Shown: one piece after another, positions 36,589 to 48,017 of the stretch
Layout of the letters: every line of letters begins with the position of its first letter
How positions within the stretch are numbered: position 1 is the stretch's first letter
NCBI RefSeq assembly: GCF_000341005.1
Contig: NZ_ANBD01000161.1
Location: forward strand, 1 to 64,000
Direction of reading: 5' to 3'
DNA length: 64,000 nt
Source: Nocardiopsis alkaliphila YIM 80379
GTDB lineage: Bacteria > Actinomycetota > Actinomycetes > Streptosporangiales > Streptosporangiaceae
Notes under the pieces: generated by a model
What the model was told of the DNA's origin: nothing
The model's input: the letters and a program-made list of their open reading frames with translations, nothing else
Database searches by the model: none
Made by a program: the position numbers and the translations under genes

Positions 36589-37170
36589 GTGTTCACTACA
36601 TCCTTGGCTTTCATCGGACTGTTTCTCGGCCTGAGCGGCCTCCTTCTCGGCGGTCAAGCGTTCCTGCGCGCCCGCCTACTCCAAAGTGAGTACCAGGCCC
36701 TGGCCCGACGGGCACTCGCCGTCAACAGCGCCGGGGCCGACCCACAGGCGGTCCGGGACGTCGCCGTGCTGCACTACGACGCGTTGGAGGAGATGAGGGG
36801 AGCCCGCTCCTTCTCCCTCGCCCTGCTCAACAGTCACGGCGACGGTGTGGTGATCACTTCCATCAACGGGCGCACCGAAGCCCGCACCTACGCCAAGGTC
36901 GTCACCCGAGGAGAATCCGAGACGCTCAGCCCCGAGGAGCGTCGGGTGATAAGGACCGCACGTCTGGGTGACGGTATCGGAGCCTGTGACCTCGAAACCG
37001 ATGCCGAGCCGGAGAAGGAACAGAGTGAAACCGATCCTTTGGAGAGGTGGGAGACAAAAGAGGAGAATCTGGTCTCCGTGGTCTCCGGAGCACAGGCACG
37101 ACGGGATCCAGGCGATACCGAGCACGCCGACACCGAAGCCGGCCCGCCTGAACCTCGGACCGAACAATGA
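36589..37170 (+). CDS. DUF4446 family membrane protein
   Basis: A 193-residue protein. One N-terminal membrane helix (about 3-24) is followed by the DUF4446 core (VRDVAVLHYDALEEMRGARSF, ALLNSHGDGVVITSINGRTEARTYAK) and a charged tail extended beyond the usual length. Function unknown in all relatives; it often lies next to pheA and serS, as here. Its stop overlaps an ATG in the pheA frame (ATGA), but pheA probably starts further in. Confidence 0.85.
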   Translation: MFTTSLAFIGLFLGLSGLLLGGQAFLRARLLQSEYQALARRALAVNSAGADPQAVRDVAVLHYDALEEMRGARSFSLALLNSHGDGVVITSINGRTEARTYAKVVTRGESETLSPEERRVIRTARLGDGIGACDLETDAEPEKEQSETDPLERWETKEENLVSVVSGAQARRDPGDTEHADTEAGPPEPRTEQ

Positions 37171-37195
37171 CCACGAGCAGGGCACGGGCCCCGTA

Positions 37196-37201
37196 TAGCC
37201 T
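37196..37201 (+). promoter_or_regulatory. -10 element of a leaderless promoter (pheA)
   Basis: TAGCCT lies 7 bases before the ATG at 37209. Confidence 0.5.
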
Positions 37202-37208
37202 GGATGGT

Positions 37209-38156
37209 ATGCCCAACCGTTACGCCTACCTCGGCCCCGAGGGCACCTTCACCGAAGCCGCCCTGCGCGATCTACGGCCCGAGGCTCCCGCCGACGCCCG
37301 TGTCCCCTATGACGGGGTGGCCGCGGTCTTCGACGCCGTACGCGCCGGAGACGTGGACGGTGGCGTCGTTCCACTGGAGAACTCGGTCGAGGGCGGGGTC
37401 ACCACCACCATCGCCGAACTCATCAACGGGGAACCCCTGCTCATCACCGGAGAGACGGCCGTTCCGGTCGAGTTCGCCCTCTTCACCCGACCCGGCACCG
37501 TGTTGGAGGACGTCAAAAGGGTGGCCACCCACCCCCACGCCCTCGCCCAATGCCGTGGTTGGCTCTCGCGACACCTGCCGGAGGCCGACCACCACACCGT
37601 CTCCTCCACCGCGGCCGCGGCCCGCGCGGTCTCCGAACCGGGGGCGCCCTACGACGCCGCGATCTGCGCCGTCATCGCCGGCGAGCGCTACGGCTTGCAG
37701 GCCCTGGCCACCGGAGTCGGTGACCGTTCCGACGCGGCCACCCGCTTCATCTACCTCAACCGGGCCGGGGCACTTCCCGAGCCCACCGGCGTCGATCTGA
37801 CCTCCCTGGTCGCCTTCATCGCCGACGACCACCCCGGCGCGCTCATCGAGGTCCTCAACCAGTTCGCCGTGCGCGGCGTCAACCTCACCCGCCTGGAATC
37901 GCGCCCCACCGGTGACGGACTCGGCAGCTACTGCTTCTGCATCGACGCCGAGGGCCACGTCGCCGACGCACGCGTGGGCGAAGCCCTCATGGGTATCCGT
38001 CGGGTCTGCCGCGACGTCCGTTTCCTCGGGAGTTATCCGCGCCGTAGCCGGGCGACCGAACTCGATCCGCCGCTGCGGCCACGCGCCGCCACCGACGCGG
38101 ACTTCGCCGAGGCCGAGCGCTGGCTCGCCCGCGTCCGATCCGGTGACATCGACTGA
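37209..38156 (+). CDS. pheA: Prephenate dehydratase
   Basis: A 315-residue enzyme converting prephenate to phenylpyruvate in phenylalanine synthesis. The catalytic domain (1-185) begins RYAYLGPEGTFTEAAL and holds ENSVEGGV and the TRF motif (AATRFIYL). A C-terminal ACT domain (about 198-275) contains the Phe-sensing HPGALIEVL and LESRPTG motifs for feedback inhibition. ATG at 37209 fits the family start and the leaderless promoter; an in-frame ATG at 37167 overlaps the DUF4446 stop and is the alternative. The C-terminal 40 residues are an extension. Confidence 0.93.
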   Translation: MPNRYAYLGPEGTFTEAALRDLRPEAPADARVPYDGVAAVFDAVRAGDVDGGVVPLENSVEGGVTTTIAELINGEPLLITGETAVPVEFALFTRPGTVLEDVKRVATHPHALAQCRGWLSRHLPEADHHTVSSTAAAARAVSEPGAPYDAAICAVIAGERYGLQALATGVGDRSDAATRFIYLNRAGALPEPTGVDLTSLVAFIADDHPGALIEVLNQFAVRGVNLTRLESRPTGDGLGSYCFCIDAEGHVADARVGEALMGIRRVCRDVRFLGSYPRRSRATELDPPLRPRAATDADFAEAERWLARVRSGDID

Positions 38157-38250
38157 GGGCACGCGCCCCGACCGATGGAAGGGCGGCAAGTCATACCCGT
38201 TCGTGACGTGACCTTGCGTAAAGGATGTGAGGCACGGTGAGGGCGAGCGG

Positions 38251-38256
38251 TAACCT
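38251..38256 (+). promoter_or_regulatory. -10 element of a leaderless promoter (serS)
   Basis: TAACCT lies 7 bases before the GTG at 38264. Confidence 0.45.
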
Positions 38257-38263
38257 GCAAGAC

Positions 38264-39547
38264 GTGATCGACCTTCGCGCCCTTCGAGAAGACCCCGAAC
38301 GACTCCGTGCATCGCAGCGGGCCCGCGGCGAGGACCCAGCCGTCGCCGACCGGCTGCTCGACCTGGACACCAGTCGCCGTTCCGCGCTGACCCGTTTCGA
38401 AACGCTGCGCGCAGAGCAGAAGAGTGTGGGCAAGTCCGTCTCCAAGGCCTCCCCCGAGGAGCGTGAGGAGCTCCTCGCCAAGGCCAAGTCCCTGGCCGCG
38501 CGAGTCAAGGAGGCCGAGGCCGAGGCCGGCCGTCTGGGCGACGAGCTCGACGCGGCCCTGGCTCGTGTGCCCAACCTCGTGGAGGAGGGCGCACCAGAAG
38601 GCGGCGTCGACGACTTCGTGGTCCTGGAAACCGTGGGCGAGCCCCGCGACTTCGACTTCACCCCGCGCGACCATCTCGAACTGGGCGAGATGCTCGGCGC
38701 CATCGACATGGAGCGTGGCGCCAAGGTCTCCGGGGCCCGGTTCTACTTCCTCACCGGTGTGGGCGCTCAGCTGGAGCTGGCCCTGCTCAACATGGCGATG
38801 AACCAGGCCGTCGAAGCGGGCTTCACCCCGATGATCCCGCCGGTCCTGGTCAAGCCGGAGACCATGGAGGGCACCGGTTTCCTCGGTGAGCACTCCGACG
38901 AGGTCTACCACCTGCCCGACGACGACCTCTACCTCGTGGGAACCTCCGAGGTGGCCCTGGCCGGGTTCCACGCCGGGGAGATCCTGCCCGCCAACGCCCT
39001 GCCCCACCGTTACATCGGATGGTCCTCCTGCTTCCGTCGTGAGGCCGGGTCCTACGGTAAGGACACCCGAGGCATCATCCGCGTCCACCAGTTCAACAAG
39101 GTGGAGATGTTCGTCTACACCCACCCGGACCAGGCACACGAGGAGCACGAGCGGCTCCTGGCCTGGGAACGGCGGATGCTCGACAAGCTCGACCTGCCCT
39201 ACCGCGTGGTGGACATCGCCGGAGGTGACCTGGGCACCAGCGCCGCCCGCAAGTACGACTGTGAAGCGTGGGTCCCCACTCAGGAGACCTACCGTGAGCT
39301 GACCTCGACCTCGAACTGCACCGAGTTCCAGGCCCGCCGCCTCAACGTCCGCTATCGGGACGCCGACGGTAAGCCCCGCTTCGCCGCCACCCTCAACGGC
39401 ACGCTCGCCACCACCCGATGGATCGTCGCCATCCTGGAGAATCACCAGCGCGCGGACGGCTCCGTGGTGGTCCCCGAGGCACTGCGCCCCTACCTGGGCA
39501 AGGACGTCCTCGAACCGATCCAAGCGCCCCGAGGCCACAACGGGTGA
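38264..39547 (+). CDS. serS: Seryl-tRNA synthetase
   Basis: A 427-residue class II synthetase charging tRNA-Ser. An N-terminal coiled-coil arm (about 1-105, [21 protein letters not shown]) binds the long variable arm of tRNA-Ser. The catalytic core has motif 2 ([21 protein letters not shown]) and motif 3 ([17 protein letters not shown]). GTG at 38264 matches the usual MIDLR start; an in-frame GTG at 38237 preceded by GAGG would add 9 residues. Confidence 0.96.
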
Positions 39548-41348: not shown

Positions 41349-42938
41349 GTGGCACAGCACGAACACAACGGGCCAGGCACCGAGTCGGAGTCGCCGGACC
41401 ACACCGAGTCGATCTGGCCGCCCGACGATGCCCAGGAGGAAACCGACGACCCGGCCACCGCGACCCCTCCGGGCCCGGAGGGGTTCACACCCACCCCTCG
41501 AGAACAGTGGTTCGGGGGTTTCGAGGGTGAGGCGCCTCCGCCTCCGCCGTACGCGCGACGACCCGAGGACGCCCCGTCACCGTTGCCCGGCGCTACCTTG
41601 GCCGCACCGGAACCGAAGTCGAAGCCGGGAAAGGGCGAGGTGACCCGCGACGAACCCGAGGAACCACGCAACGGTGCGGTCCGGCCCGTACCGGGGAACC
41701 GGCGTCCCGACGCCACACCTTGGCGTGAGGAGGAACCACGGATCCCGCCCCGCCCTTCTCCCACCGGGCGTGAGGAACGGGACCCACTCGGTCCACGCCG
41801 TGTACGTGGTGACTCCGACGTTCCCGAACCCGAGCAACTTCCACCTCTGGAGACCGAACGACCAGGTGAGACCTGGGAGGGTTCCAAGGAAGCGGGCGCC
41901 CCTTCATCGTCCGATCCCGAGCCTTCGGTGACCGCGACCTCGCCACGCGACCAGGAGAACGAGCCCGCCCCCCGGTCACCCGCTCGGCGTCCGGAGAACG
42001 AGCCCGGTGTGACCGCCGACGCGCTCAACGCCGCCACACTGGTCCGCAACCGGCGCCAAGGACCCAGCGGGGGATGGCGTCGGGTCGTCCACGGCGTGAG
42101 TCTCGGTCTGATCAACCCGGGCGAGTCCCCCAAGGTTCTGCGCGAACGCGAACTCGTCGCCCGGGCCTGTACCCCCGTCGCCACCGGACACCACCGGGTG
42201 GCGGTGCTCAGCCTCAAGGGTGGGGTCGGCAAGACCACCACCACCGTCGCCTTGGGCGCCACCCTCGCCTCCCTGCGCGGTGACCGGATCCTGGCCGTGG
42301 ACGCCAACCCGGACCGGGGCACGCTTTCGGACAAGGTGCGACTGGAGACCGCGGCCACCATCCGTGACCTGCTCAACGAACGTCATCTGGTCTCCCGCTA
42401 CGCTGACATCCGCGGGTTCACCTCACAGGCGCCCAGCCGGTTGGAGATCCTCGCCTCCGACCGTGACCCCGCCGTCTCAGAGGCCTTCAGCGACGAGGAC
42501 TACCGTGAGGTCGCCCGCATCGTCGAGCACTTCTACTCGATCTGCATCACCGACTGCGGTACCGGGCTGTTGCACTCCGCCATGGGCGGTGTCCTCGGTC
42601 TCGCCGACCAGGTGGTCCTGGTCAGCTCGGCCTCCGTCGACGGGGCACGCAGCGCCAGCGCCACCCTCGACTGGCTCGAGGCGCACGGGCATGGTGCCCT
42701 CGTCGCCGGCGCCGTCGTGGTGCTGTCCATGGTGCGCTCCAACAGCAAGAGCAGTGTGGACCTCGACCGGCTGGAGGAGCACTTCGCCGGTCGTTGTCGG
42801 TCCGTGGTCCGAGTCCCCTGGGACGGCCACCTCGAAGAGGGCGCCGAGGTCGACCTGGACCGGCTCGCCCCCGCGACCAAGGACGCCTACCTCCAACTGG
42901 CCGCGAACGTGGGGGAGGCCTTCGCTCACCGTCGCTGA
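41349..42938 (+). CDS. MinD/ParA-like ATPase with long disordered N-terminus
   Basis: A 529-residue protein. The first 230 or so residues are low-complexity, rich in Pro, Glu, Asp and Arg, with no fold. The C-terminal half is a deviant Walker A ATPase: VLSLKGGVGKTTTTVAL, LAVDANPDRGTL and switch II ITDCGTGLLHSAM. The layout matches actinobacterial MinD/ParA-like proteins that accompany type VII secretion or polar growth, but no secretion genes are visible here. GTG at 41349 has AGGAG 9 bases upstream. Confidence 0.85.
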   Translation: MAQHEHNGPGTESESPDHTESIWPPDDAQEETDDPATATPPGPEGFTPTPREQWFGGFEGEAPPPPPYARRPEDAPSPLPGATLAAPEPKSKPGKGEVTRDEPEEPRNGAVRPVPGNRRPDATPWREEEPRIPPRPSPTGREERDPLGPRRVRGDSDVPEPEQLPPLETERPGETWEGSKEAGAPSSSDPEPSVTATSPRDQENEPAPRSPARRPENEPGVTADALNAATLVRNRRQGPSGGWRRVVHGVSLGLINPGESPKVLRERELVARACTPVATGHHRVAVLSLKGGVGKTTTTVALGATLASLRGDRILAVDANPDRGTLSDKVRLETAATIRDLLNERHLVSRYADIRGFTSQAPSRLEILASDRDPAVSEAFSDEDYREVARIVEHFYSICITDCGTGLLHSAMGGVLGLADQVVLVSSASVDGARSASATLDWLEAHGHGALVAGAVVVLSMVRSNSKSSVDLDRLEEHFAGRCRSVVRVPWDGHLEEGAEVDLDRLAPATKDAYLQLAANVGEAFAHRR

Positions 42939-45813: not shown

Positions 45814-46968
45814 GTGAGACTACGAGTGGATCGCGACGCGTTCGCGGAGGCGGTCTCCTGGACCGCGCGGGCGCTACCCACCAGGCCCGCGGTGCCCGTG
45901 CTCGCGGGAATGCGCATGGAGGTCTCCGCCGACGGTGACACGCTGAACATGTCCGGCTTCGACTACGAGGTCTCCACCCGGGCCTCGGTGGAAGTCCTCT
46001 CCGAGGAATCCGGGGCGGTGCTGGTCCCCGGGCGTTTGTTGGCGGAGATCGTCAACAACCTGCCCTCGGGTTCGGTGTACATCGACACCGACGGGCCCAA
46101 AGTGAAGGTGAGCGGGGGCGCGGCCCGGTTCACACTCATCACCATGCCCCTGGAGGACTACCCGAGCCTGCCGGGTATGCCGGGGACGATCGGTTCGGTG
46201 GCGGCGGGCGGCTTCGGTACGGCGGTACGGCAGGTGGCCCCGGCGGCGAGCAAGGACGACACCCTGCCGATGCTCACCGGCGCCTACCTAGGCTTCTCCG
46301 GGGAGACGTTGAAGGTGGTGGCCACCGACCGCTACCGGATCGCGGTGCGTGAGTTGTGGTGGCGGCCGGAGGATCCCGGGGTGGACTTGTCCGCGCTGGT
46401 CCCCGCACGGACCCTGGCCAATACGGTGCGCGGGCTGATAAGCCGGTCCAACGTGGACATCGCCTTGTCCACGGACGTGGTGGGGCAGGGTGTGAACCTC
46501 TCTCCGGGCGAGGGCATGATCGGCTTCGCCAACGGTGAGCGACGGACCACCACCCGACTGATCGACAGTGACTTCGTCAAGTACGCCTCCTGGTTCCCCA
46601 CCGAGTTCAACGGACGGGCGGAGGTCGCGGTGACTCCGCTGCTGGAGGCGATCAAGCGGGTCGCTTTGGTGGCGGACCGAAACACGCCGCTCCGGCTGGC
46701 GTTCACGGAGGGTGAGGTCGTTCTGGAGGCCGGTTCGGGTGAGGACGCCCAAGCGGTGGAGGCCATCGAGGTGGGCTACGAGGGGGACCCCCTGCGGGTG
46801 GCGTTCAAGCCCGACTACCTGGTCGACGGGCTCACGGCGGTGGAGACGACCACCGCACACCTGAACTTCACCGAACCGACGAAACCCGCCGTGTTCACAG
46901 ATGTGCCGGCCAAGAAGGGGGAGGAACCCTCCTTCCGTTACTTGGTCCAGCCTTTGCGTAGCGCCTGA
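45814..46968 (+). CDS. DNA polymerase III beta clamp (DnaN), possible paralogue
   Basis: A 384-residue sliding clamp with three repeats of the clamp fold. DTLPMLTGAYLGFSGETLKVVATDRYRIAVREL and LPMVRL-like ending YLVQPLRSA are typical. It is full length with a good GAGGAG ribosome site. Neither dnaA nor recF is adjacent, unlike the principal dnaN of actinobacteria, which suggests a second clamp gene as known in Streptomyces; however, a DnaA-box cluster lies directly downstream. It may act in replication or repair as an alternative clamp. Confidence 0.82.
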   Translation: MRLRVDRDAFAEAVSWTARALPTRPAVPVLAGMRMEVSADGDTLNMSGFDYEVSTRASVEVLSEESGAVLVPGRLLAEIVNNLPSGSVYIDTDGPKVKVSGGAARFTLITMPLEDYPSLPGMPGTIGSVAAGGFGTAVRQVAPAASKDDTLPMLTGAYLGFSGETLKVVATDRYRIAVRELWWRPEDPGVDLSALVPARTLANTVRGLISRSNVDIALSTDVVGQGVNLSPGEGMIGFANGERRTTTRLIDSDFVKYASWFPTEFNGRAEVAVTPLLEAIKRVALVADRNTPLRLAFTEGEVVLEAGSGEDAQAVEAIEVGYEGDPLRVAFKPDYLVDGLTAVETTTAHLNFTEPTKPAVFTDVPAKKGEEPSFRYLVQPLRSA

Positions 46969-46995
46969 CCAGCCGTTTCACGGCTTCTGGGGAAG

Positions 46996-47166
46996 TTGTA
47001 CACAGGTCTGTCCACAAGTTATCCACAGGTCGTCTCGACAGCCTGTGGATAACCCGGGGTGATCAGACCTTCCACGGTCGTGAAGCGCCTCCCGAACCGG
47101 CGCATATTTCCGCTGTGACATGGGAAAACGCTGCGCCTGGGGATTCTGTGCACATCCTGTGGATAA
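46996..47166. other. Cluster of DnaA boxes
   Basis: Within 171 bases there are three perfect TTATCCACA boxes: forward at 47019-47027, and reverse (TGTGGATAA) at 47044-47052 and 47158-47166. Near-matches are TTGTACACA at 46996-47004 and CTGTCCACA at 47008-47016. The cluster fills the gap between two convergent genes (beta clamp and DUF2786). It looks like a DnaA-binding locus; whether it is an origin, a remnant or a DnaA titration site cannot be told. Confidence 0.75.
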
Positions 47167-47180
47167 CTCTGGTCGAAGAG

Positions 47181-48017
47181 CTATTCCCCTTCGGCCAGAG
47201 CGGACGTCCCACCCCTGGTCACCGGAGTTTCCAGACCCAGTTCCGCCTGGTGCCCACGGCGGTATCCGGCCCGGTGGCCGGCGGCGCTATGAGTACGCTC
47301 CGGGCGGTGTTTGCGCAACTGTGGGAACTGCTTGTGGAACTCTTCGTTCACCCGATGCACATCGTCGCGTAGAACCAGATCGGCGGCGCGGGCGGAACCA
47401 CTCCCGTCACTTTCGGTGACCCTGGAGGTGTCGGTTTCGGATGAGGCCATTCTCTGAAGACGGGCACGGAACTCACGAATGCGTTCGGCCACCGCCTGCC
47501 CATACGCACGGACGAAGGAACGGTAGTAACGCTTACGCTCGGTCTCCAGTTCCGACCGCGTGTAGTTGCGCAACTCCCGAATGTCGGAGACGTGCGCCGA
47601 ACTCATGAACCTGGCCGACGCTTCCATCTGCATGGAGATCGACGGCAGGAGCATTCGCAGCGCTTCCAGGGCGTTGACCGTGCCCACCAGGATGATGGTC
47701 CGTTCGGTGTTCTCGGAGGTGTTGCCACGCACCGCGGATTGACAGCCATAGGCCGCGGCGATATCGGCCAGGGCCCGGACCCGTGCCTTGCCGTGGCCGC
47801 CCACACCGGAAACGGTGTAGTCCATGCGGCTGATCGAATCCGGCTCCTCGCCCCTCTCGGCGCGGGCCTCGGCCTCGGCGATCGCGTGGCGGGTCATCAG
47901 CTCTGCGGCCTTGGCGGTGAACGCCTGGCTCTCGGCATCGGTGACCGCGGGATCCTCCGCCATGCGCAGGAGCCCGCGGACCCGCTCGACCATCTTCTGA
48001 CGAGCAGCTTCAGTCAT
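47181..48017 (-). CDS. DUF2786 family protein
   Basis: A 278-residue cytoplasmic protein. The N-terminal about 45 residues are DUF2786 (VERVRGLLRMAEDPAVTDAESQAFTAKAAELMTRHAI), and the middle part matches the domain that commonly follows it (TIILVGTVNALEALRMLLPSISMQME, YRSFVRAYGQAVAERI). The tail is basic and His-rich. Unknown function. Convergent with the beta clamp gene across the DnaA-box cluster. Confidence 0.82.
   Translation of the reverse strand: MTEAARQKMVERVRGLLRMAEDPAVTDAESQAFTAKAAELMTRHAIAEAEARAERGEEPDSISRMDYTVSGVGGHGKARVRALADIAAAYGCQSAVRGNTSENTERTIILVGTVNALEALRMLLPSISMQMEASARFMSSAHVSDIRELRNYTRSELETERKRYYRSFVRAYGQAVAERIREFRARLQRMASSETDTSRVTESDGSGSARAADLVLRDDVHRVNEEFHKQFPQLRKHRPERTHSAAGHRAGYRRGHQAELGLETPVTRGGTSALAEGE

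Follow-up and report, generated by a model that had tools for sequence, protein, structure and literature searches.

The dnaN2-DUF2786 intergenic region

The window analyzed here, a 64-kb stretch of contig C161 of a draft 5.2-Mb Nocardiopsis alkaliphila genome, carries a second β-clamp gene, dnaN2, that converges on a DUF2786 gene across a short noncoding gap (Table 1). An earlier note, made from the sequence of the window, had called these flanking genes as DnaN-type clamp and DUF2786, and matches to TIGR00663 and PF10979 bear this out. The nearest named relatives of dnaN2 are from Nocardiopsis species, and every one of the 40 Nocardiopsis genomes carries the gene. It encodes a full-length β clamp about 56% identical to the product of the dnaN copy at oriC, and in related genera dnaN2 is found at 56–68% identity to the window copy. 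A gene for a ParA/MinD-like ATPase with a long N-terminal extension (positions 41349–42938) also lies near the cluster described below; it is kept near dnaN2 even in the deeper relative G095.

Within 171 bases of the gap lie three perfect TTATCCACA DnaA boxes and two near-matches, exactly as the earlier note had listed them. The three are the only perfect copies in the window, where about 0.05–0.07 are expected; the whole draft genome has 30, vs 4 in a reversed-sequence control. The chance of finding two further boxes within 148 bp of a given one is ~6e-9 at the control density and 4e-7 at the observed density, and these statistics, together with the permuted-box controls given below, rule out a chance origin of the cluster. 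Its boxes match those of the same genome's oriC. The two near-matches, with two mismatches each, would mean little if taken alone; they lie +28 (46996) and +40 (47008) from the dnaN2 stop, which are the sites of TTCTCCACA or perfect TTATCCACA in relatives. The locus thus has multiple high-consensus DnaA boxes in a few hundred bp outside oriC, as is expected of a titration-class cluster.

Table 1 Coordinates of the DnaA-box cluster, its neighbors and a landmark gene pair in the window
Feature	Position	Strand	Remarks
pheA and serS	37167–39547	+	Landmark; orthologs flank a DnaA-box cluster in two Streptomyces-like genomes
dnaN2, second β-clamp gene	45814–46968	+	Complete; TIGR00663, 234 bits; neighbor, not thought part of the element
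Intergenic DnaA-box cluster region	46969–47180	.	Between convergent dnaN2 and DUF2786 genes; 212-bp gap
Degenerate DnaA-box position TTGTACACA	46996–47004	+	2 mismatches; TTCTCCACA in some relatives
Degenerate DnaA-box position CTGTCCACA	47008–47016	+	2 mismatches; many relatives have perfect TTATCCACA
Perfect DnaA box	47019–47027	+	Left member of the conserved inverted pair, GTTATCCACAGG; columns 99% identical over 30 genomes
Perfect DnaA box	47044–47052	-	Right member of the conserved inverted pair, CCTGTGGATAAC; columns 99.6% identical
Non-box motif GTTTTCCCATGTCACA	47114–47129	-	Also in oriC and dnaB-upstream cluster; wider conserved stretch 47105–47129
Conserved palindrome TGTGCACA	47147–47154	.	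96% identity; possible weak DnaA site; also in dnaB-upstream cluster
Third perfect DnaA box	47158–47166	-	Varies at box position 3 only in 30-genome alignment
DUF2786 gene	47181–48017	-	PF10979; boxes near its 3′ end across genera

The cluster is not the replication origin

Several DnaA boxes adjoining a clamp gene could suggest a displaced or second replication origin, and a displaced origin piece was one of three possibilities raised in the earlier note, which had also remarked that neither dnaA nor recF accompanies this clamp gene. Both of those genes are with the main dnaN on a separate contig of the same genome, C52, where the principal dnaA-oriC-dnaN-recF locus is complete. The main block of this oriC contains 15 boxes (with up to one mismatch), and a TAGTAGTAGTAG run of TAG-repeat DnaA-trios adjoins two of them. 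The window cluster lies outside the dnaA-dnaN region, a search for TAG-repeat DnaA-trios within it found none, and GC skew across the window, which the note had proposed as a check, has no clear sign switch near 47 kb. In view of this evidence the cluster is almost certainly not an origin of either kind.

It is origin-proximal. In the 17 genomes that have both dnaN genes on one contig, the distance from the oriC dnaN to dnaN2 is 60–256 kb (median 144 kb).

Conservation in Nocardiopsis and other genera

All 39 Nocardiopsis loci examined retain the inverted pair, its two boxes separated by 15–16 bp and, relative to the dnaN2 stop, offset by about +50 and +75; the distal box is at about +188, and part of the genus has an extra box at about +39. 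In an alignment of 30 genomes the columns of the three main boxes average 98% identical, vs 65% for other intergenic columns (p=6e-13, by a Mann-Whitney comparison over alignment columns that ignores the relatedness of the genomes). The distal box (47158) has a single variable position, its third, which is A, G or T in relatives. The boxes are therefore conserved among relatives, and the doubt on that point entered in the earlier note can be set aside.

With its inverted pair between convergent genes, the cluster might instead be a bidirectional transcription barrier, whether an RNA hairpin terminator or a roadblock of bound DnaA to RNA polymerase. The pair can fold into a 13-bp hairpin (-24 kcal/mol), and RNA from the gap has a more stable fold than shuffled sequences (z -3.3). 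On the other hand, one arm is altered at box position 3 in 8 of the 39 loci and its partner never compensates, so that the pair is broken in 8 of 8. The mostly direct repeats of other genera (below) allow no hairpin, a search for U-tract terminators gave no match, and an Rfam search was likewise negative. We therefore reject the RNA hairpin or intrinsic terminator; a DnaA roadblock between the convergent genes is conceivable, and overall we regard a barrier of either sort as unlikely.

In the other genera of the Nocardiopsaceae, dnaN2 and the DUF2786 gene are usually separated by further sequence or another gene, which in two loci includes an F420/PPOX-like reading frame (read by eye) and in one a transposase. 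The boxes in these genera, mostly direct repeats, adjoin the DUF2786 3′ end and are 0.6–2 kb from dnaN2, behind the other sequence. A box cluster was found in 26 of the 29 other-genus loci fetched; with 60 permuted boxes matched in composition the count was 0 of 29 every time. In two of the three exceptions (L163 and L164) the DUF2786 gene lies beyond the stretch first fetched and boxes are present there, and the third is truncated by a contig edge, so 28 of 28 evaluable other-genus loci carry boxes. Of the deeper relatives, G056 has the boxes, and G095 has both dnaN2 and the DUF2786 gene with no boxes. Apart from G095, then, relatives share the cluster at this locus, and it has been kept in place across some 15 genera. 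Since the boxes stay beside DUF2786 when other sequence splits the two genes, it is the 3′ end of DUF2786, not the clamp gene, that the cluster tracks.

This arrangement bears on the suggestion that the boxes regulate transcription of one of their neighbors, which in the earlier note took the form of a second clamp gene under DnaA control. Both dnaN2 and DUF2786 are indeed adjacent to the boxes. However, the boxes are at the 3′ ends of both genes, neither gene start has a perfect box nearby, and a search for sigma-70-like promoters at the cluster gave no match. Being 3′ of both neighbors, the boxes are unlikely to act in promoter control, and as they are not close to a promoter and do not stay with the clamp gene, DnaA control of dnaN2 in particular does not hold up. 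Regulation of either gene seems to us very improbable.

A probable initiator-titration site

The cluster is a real, conserved DnaA-box cluster outside oriC. By its sequence and location it is probably an initiator-titration site comparable to datA of Escherichia coli. Its fixed, conserved place and oriC-proximal position make this the best supported of the three possibilities in the earlier note. DnaA-box clusters near oriC in Streptomyces coelicolor and Bacillus subtilis repress untimely initiation, as E. coli datA does (reviewed in PMC4585315, PMC5742627 and PMC10950094), and these precedents make titration the best-supported reading.

Under the titration model DnaA would bind cooperatively to the inverted pair and to the distal box. 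Lying 60–256 kb from oriC, the site would be copied early after each initiation; this would double the DnaA sink, free initiator would fall until more was made, and the lowered level of free DnaA would limit re-initiation. The second conserved motif of the cluster, which is also in oriC, might speculatively be the site of a co-factor. What is seen directly of these steps is the presence of high-consensus boxes, their conservation with conserved spacing, and their oriC-proximal position.

Three observations weigh against titration. The architecture is not strictly maintained, with an inverted pair plus a distal box in Nocardiopsis and mainly direct repeats in other genera; G095 is box-free despite having both flanking genes; and the cluster has two to four strong boxes, fewer than oriC. 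An alternative function is a DARS-like one, in which the site converts ADP-DnaA back to ATP-DnaA instead of titrating it. Three strong boxes with an extra conserved motif among them would suit such a site, but the box arrangement varies between genera and DARS activity is not readable from sequence; we think this quite unlikely, somewhat more so than a transcription barrier. The locus is of practical interest: control of re-initiation in actinobacteria is poorly known, and the cluster is a small deletable target with which to test initiator titration outside the model species.

Comparison with known extra-origin clusters

Clusters of this type have precedents in Streptomyces, Bacillus and E. 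coli, and most likely the Nocardiopsaceae locus adds to them; a search of the available literature found no paper linking Nocardiopsis with DnaA boxes and oriC. S. coelicolor reportedly has extra-oriC DnaA-box clusters, D78, H24 and H69, which are said to have been described by Smulczyk-Krawczyszyn et al. in 2006. Like the Nocardiopsaceae cluster, those of S. coelicolor have several DnaA boxes near oriC and outside dnaA-dnaN; they differ in that the Nocardiopsaceae site is at the DUF2786 3′ end, in the window about 7.5 kb from serS.

In each of two chaplin-rich Streptomyces-like genomes one group of boxes, about 98 kb from oriC, separates pheA from serS, and another is found next to cyclophilin/rhomboid genes. 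The first presumably corresponds to D78 of S. coelicolor and the second to H69. The window carries orthologs of pheA, serS, cyclophilin and rhomboid, and no boxes were found beside serS or between pheA and serS in the Nocardiopsaceae tested. The window cluster is therefore in the same neighborhood as the Streptomyces clusters and at a different site; in particular it does not occupy the D78 locus, if that is taken as the pheA-serS intergenic site. SCO3961 of S. coelicolor is serS (PMC4595836).

Like E. coli datA, the cluster is noncoding and brings together DnaA boxes at no great distance from oriC. In datA a further protein, IHF, has its site between the boxes, and the extra motif of the cluster may likewise be a protein site. 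It differs from datA in box sequence and order, and the conserved motif between its boxes is a different one. B. subtilis is said to have oriC-proximal DnaA-box clusters as well (attributed to Okumura et al., 2012), similar in having DnaA boxes near oriC and different in that they are at other loci and in another phylum.

The dnaB-upstream cluster and a shared non-box motif

Outside the origin, the groups of perfect boxes that recur in six closed genomes are found at the DUF2786 locus, just upstream of dnaA (in most of the genomes) and upstream of dnaB. The cluster immediately upstream of dnaA (L003:6927-7116) has four perfect boxes and is likely to function in dnaA autoregulation. The dnaB-upstream cluster is 36–40 kb from oriC in the six genomes, with box-pair spacing fixed at 102–103 bp. 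In N. alkaliphila it lies between dnaB and a MATE gene at L004:3834-3982 (C54:6833-6981), and it may put the helicase gene under DnaA control or be a further titration site. Its box is presumably the counterpart of S. coelicolor H24.

The motif between the boxes of the window cluster, GTTTYCSCAKGTCAVA, has copies at 47114–47129, in oriC (L003:3772-3787, adjoining the two boxes beside the TAG trios) and in the dnaB cluster (L004:3918-3933). A weight matrix for this middle element, trained solely on Nocardiopsis DUF2786-locus copies, in 7 of 7 Nocardiopsaceae loci scores highest within the dnaB cluster; its best match also falls in the oriC of N. alkaliphila and, for both Streptomyces-like genomes, in the cyclophilin/rhomboid cluster. 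A pattern search of the N. alkaliphila genome gave three perfect matches, two of them at DnaA loci, with a pattern that had been fitted to the oriC copy as well. Across 70 genomes GTTTYCSCAKGTCAVA is over-represented vs a reversed control, and most matches are away from DnaA loci; a motif scan of the DUF2786 clusters of other genera found it missing from most. We accordingly do not accept GTTTYCSCAKGTCAVA as a strict marker of DnaA loci, and its absence from those clusters and occurrence at unrelated places make it a lead, not a result.

IHF acts at oriC, datA and DARS2. As GTTTYCSCAKGTCAVA is common to the dnaB cluster, the Nocardiopsis DUF2786 cluster, oriC and one Streptomyces cluster, a shared second factor, an actinobacterial counterpart of IHF, could conceivably bind the origin and its regulatory satellites, an idea that we hold only tentatively and think doubtful on balance. 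The shared motif does suggest where to seek a missing origin co-factor.

Two other box groups were seen. G126, another member of the family, has a cluster at L115:5662-5789, near a rhodanese gene and about 119 kb from its oriC, which is not a DUF2786 locus. Two perfect boxes 114 bp apart (L005:3694-3816; C128:12693-12815 in N. alkaliphila) lie by an asparagine-synthase-like cluster and have the same spacing as the boxes at 47044 and 47158; this is probably coincidence.
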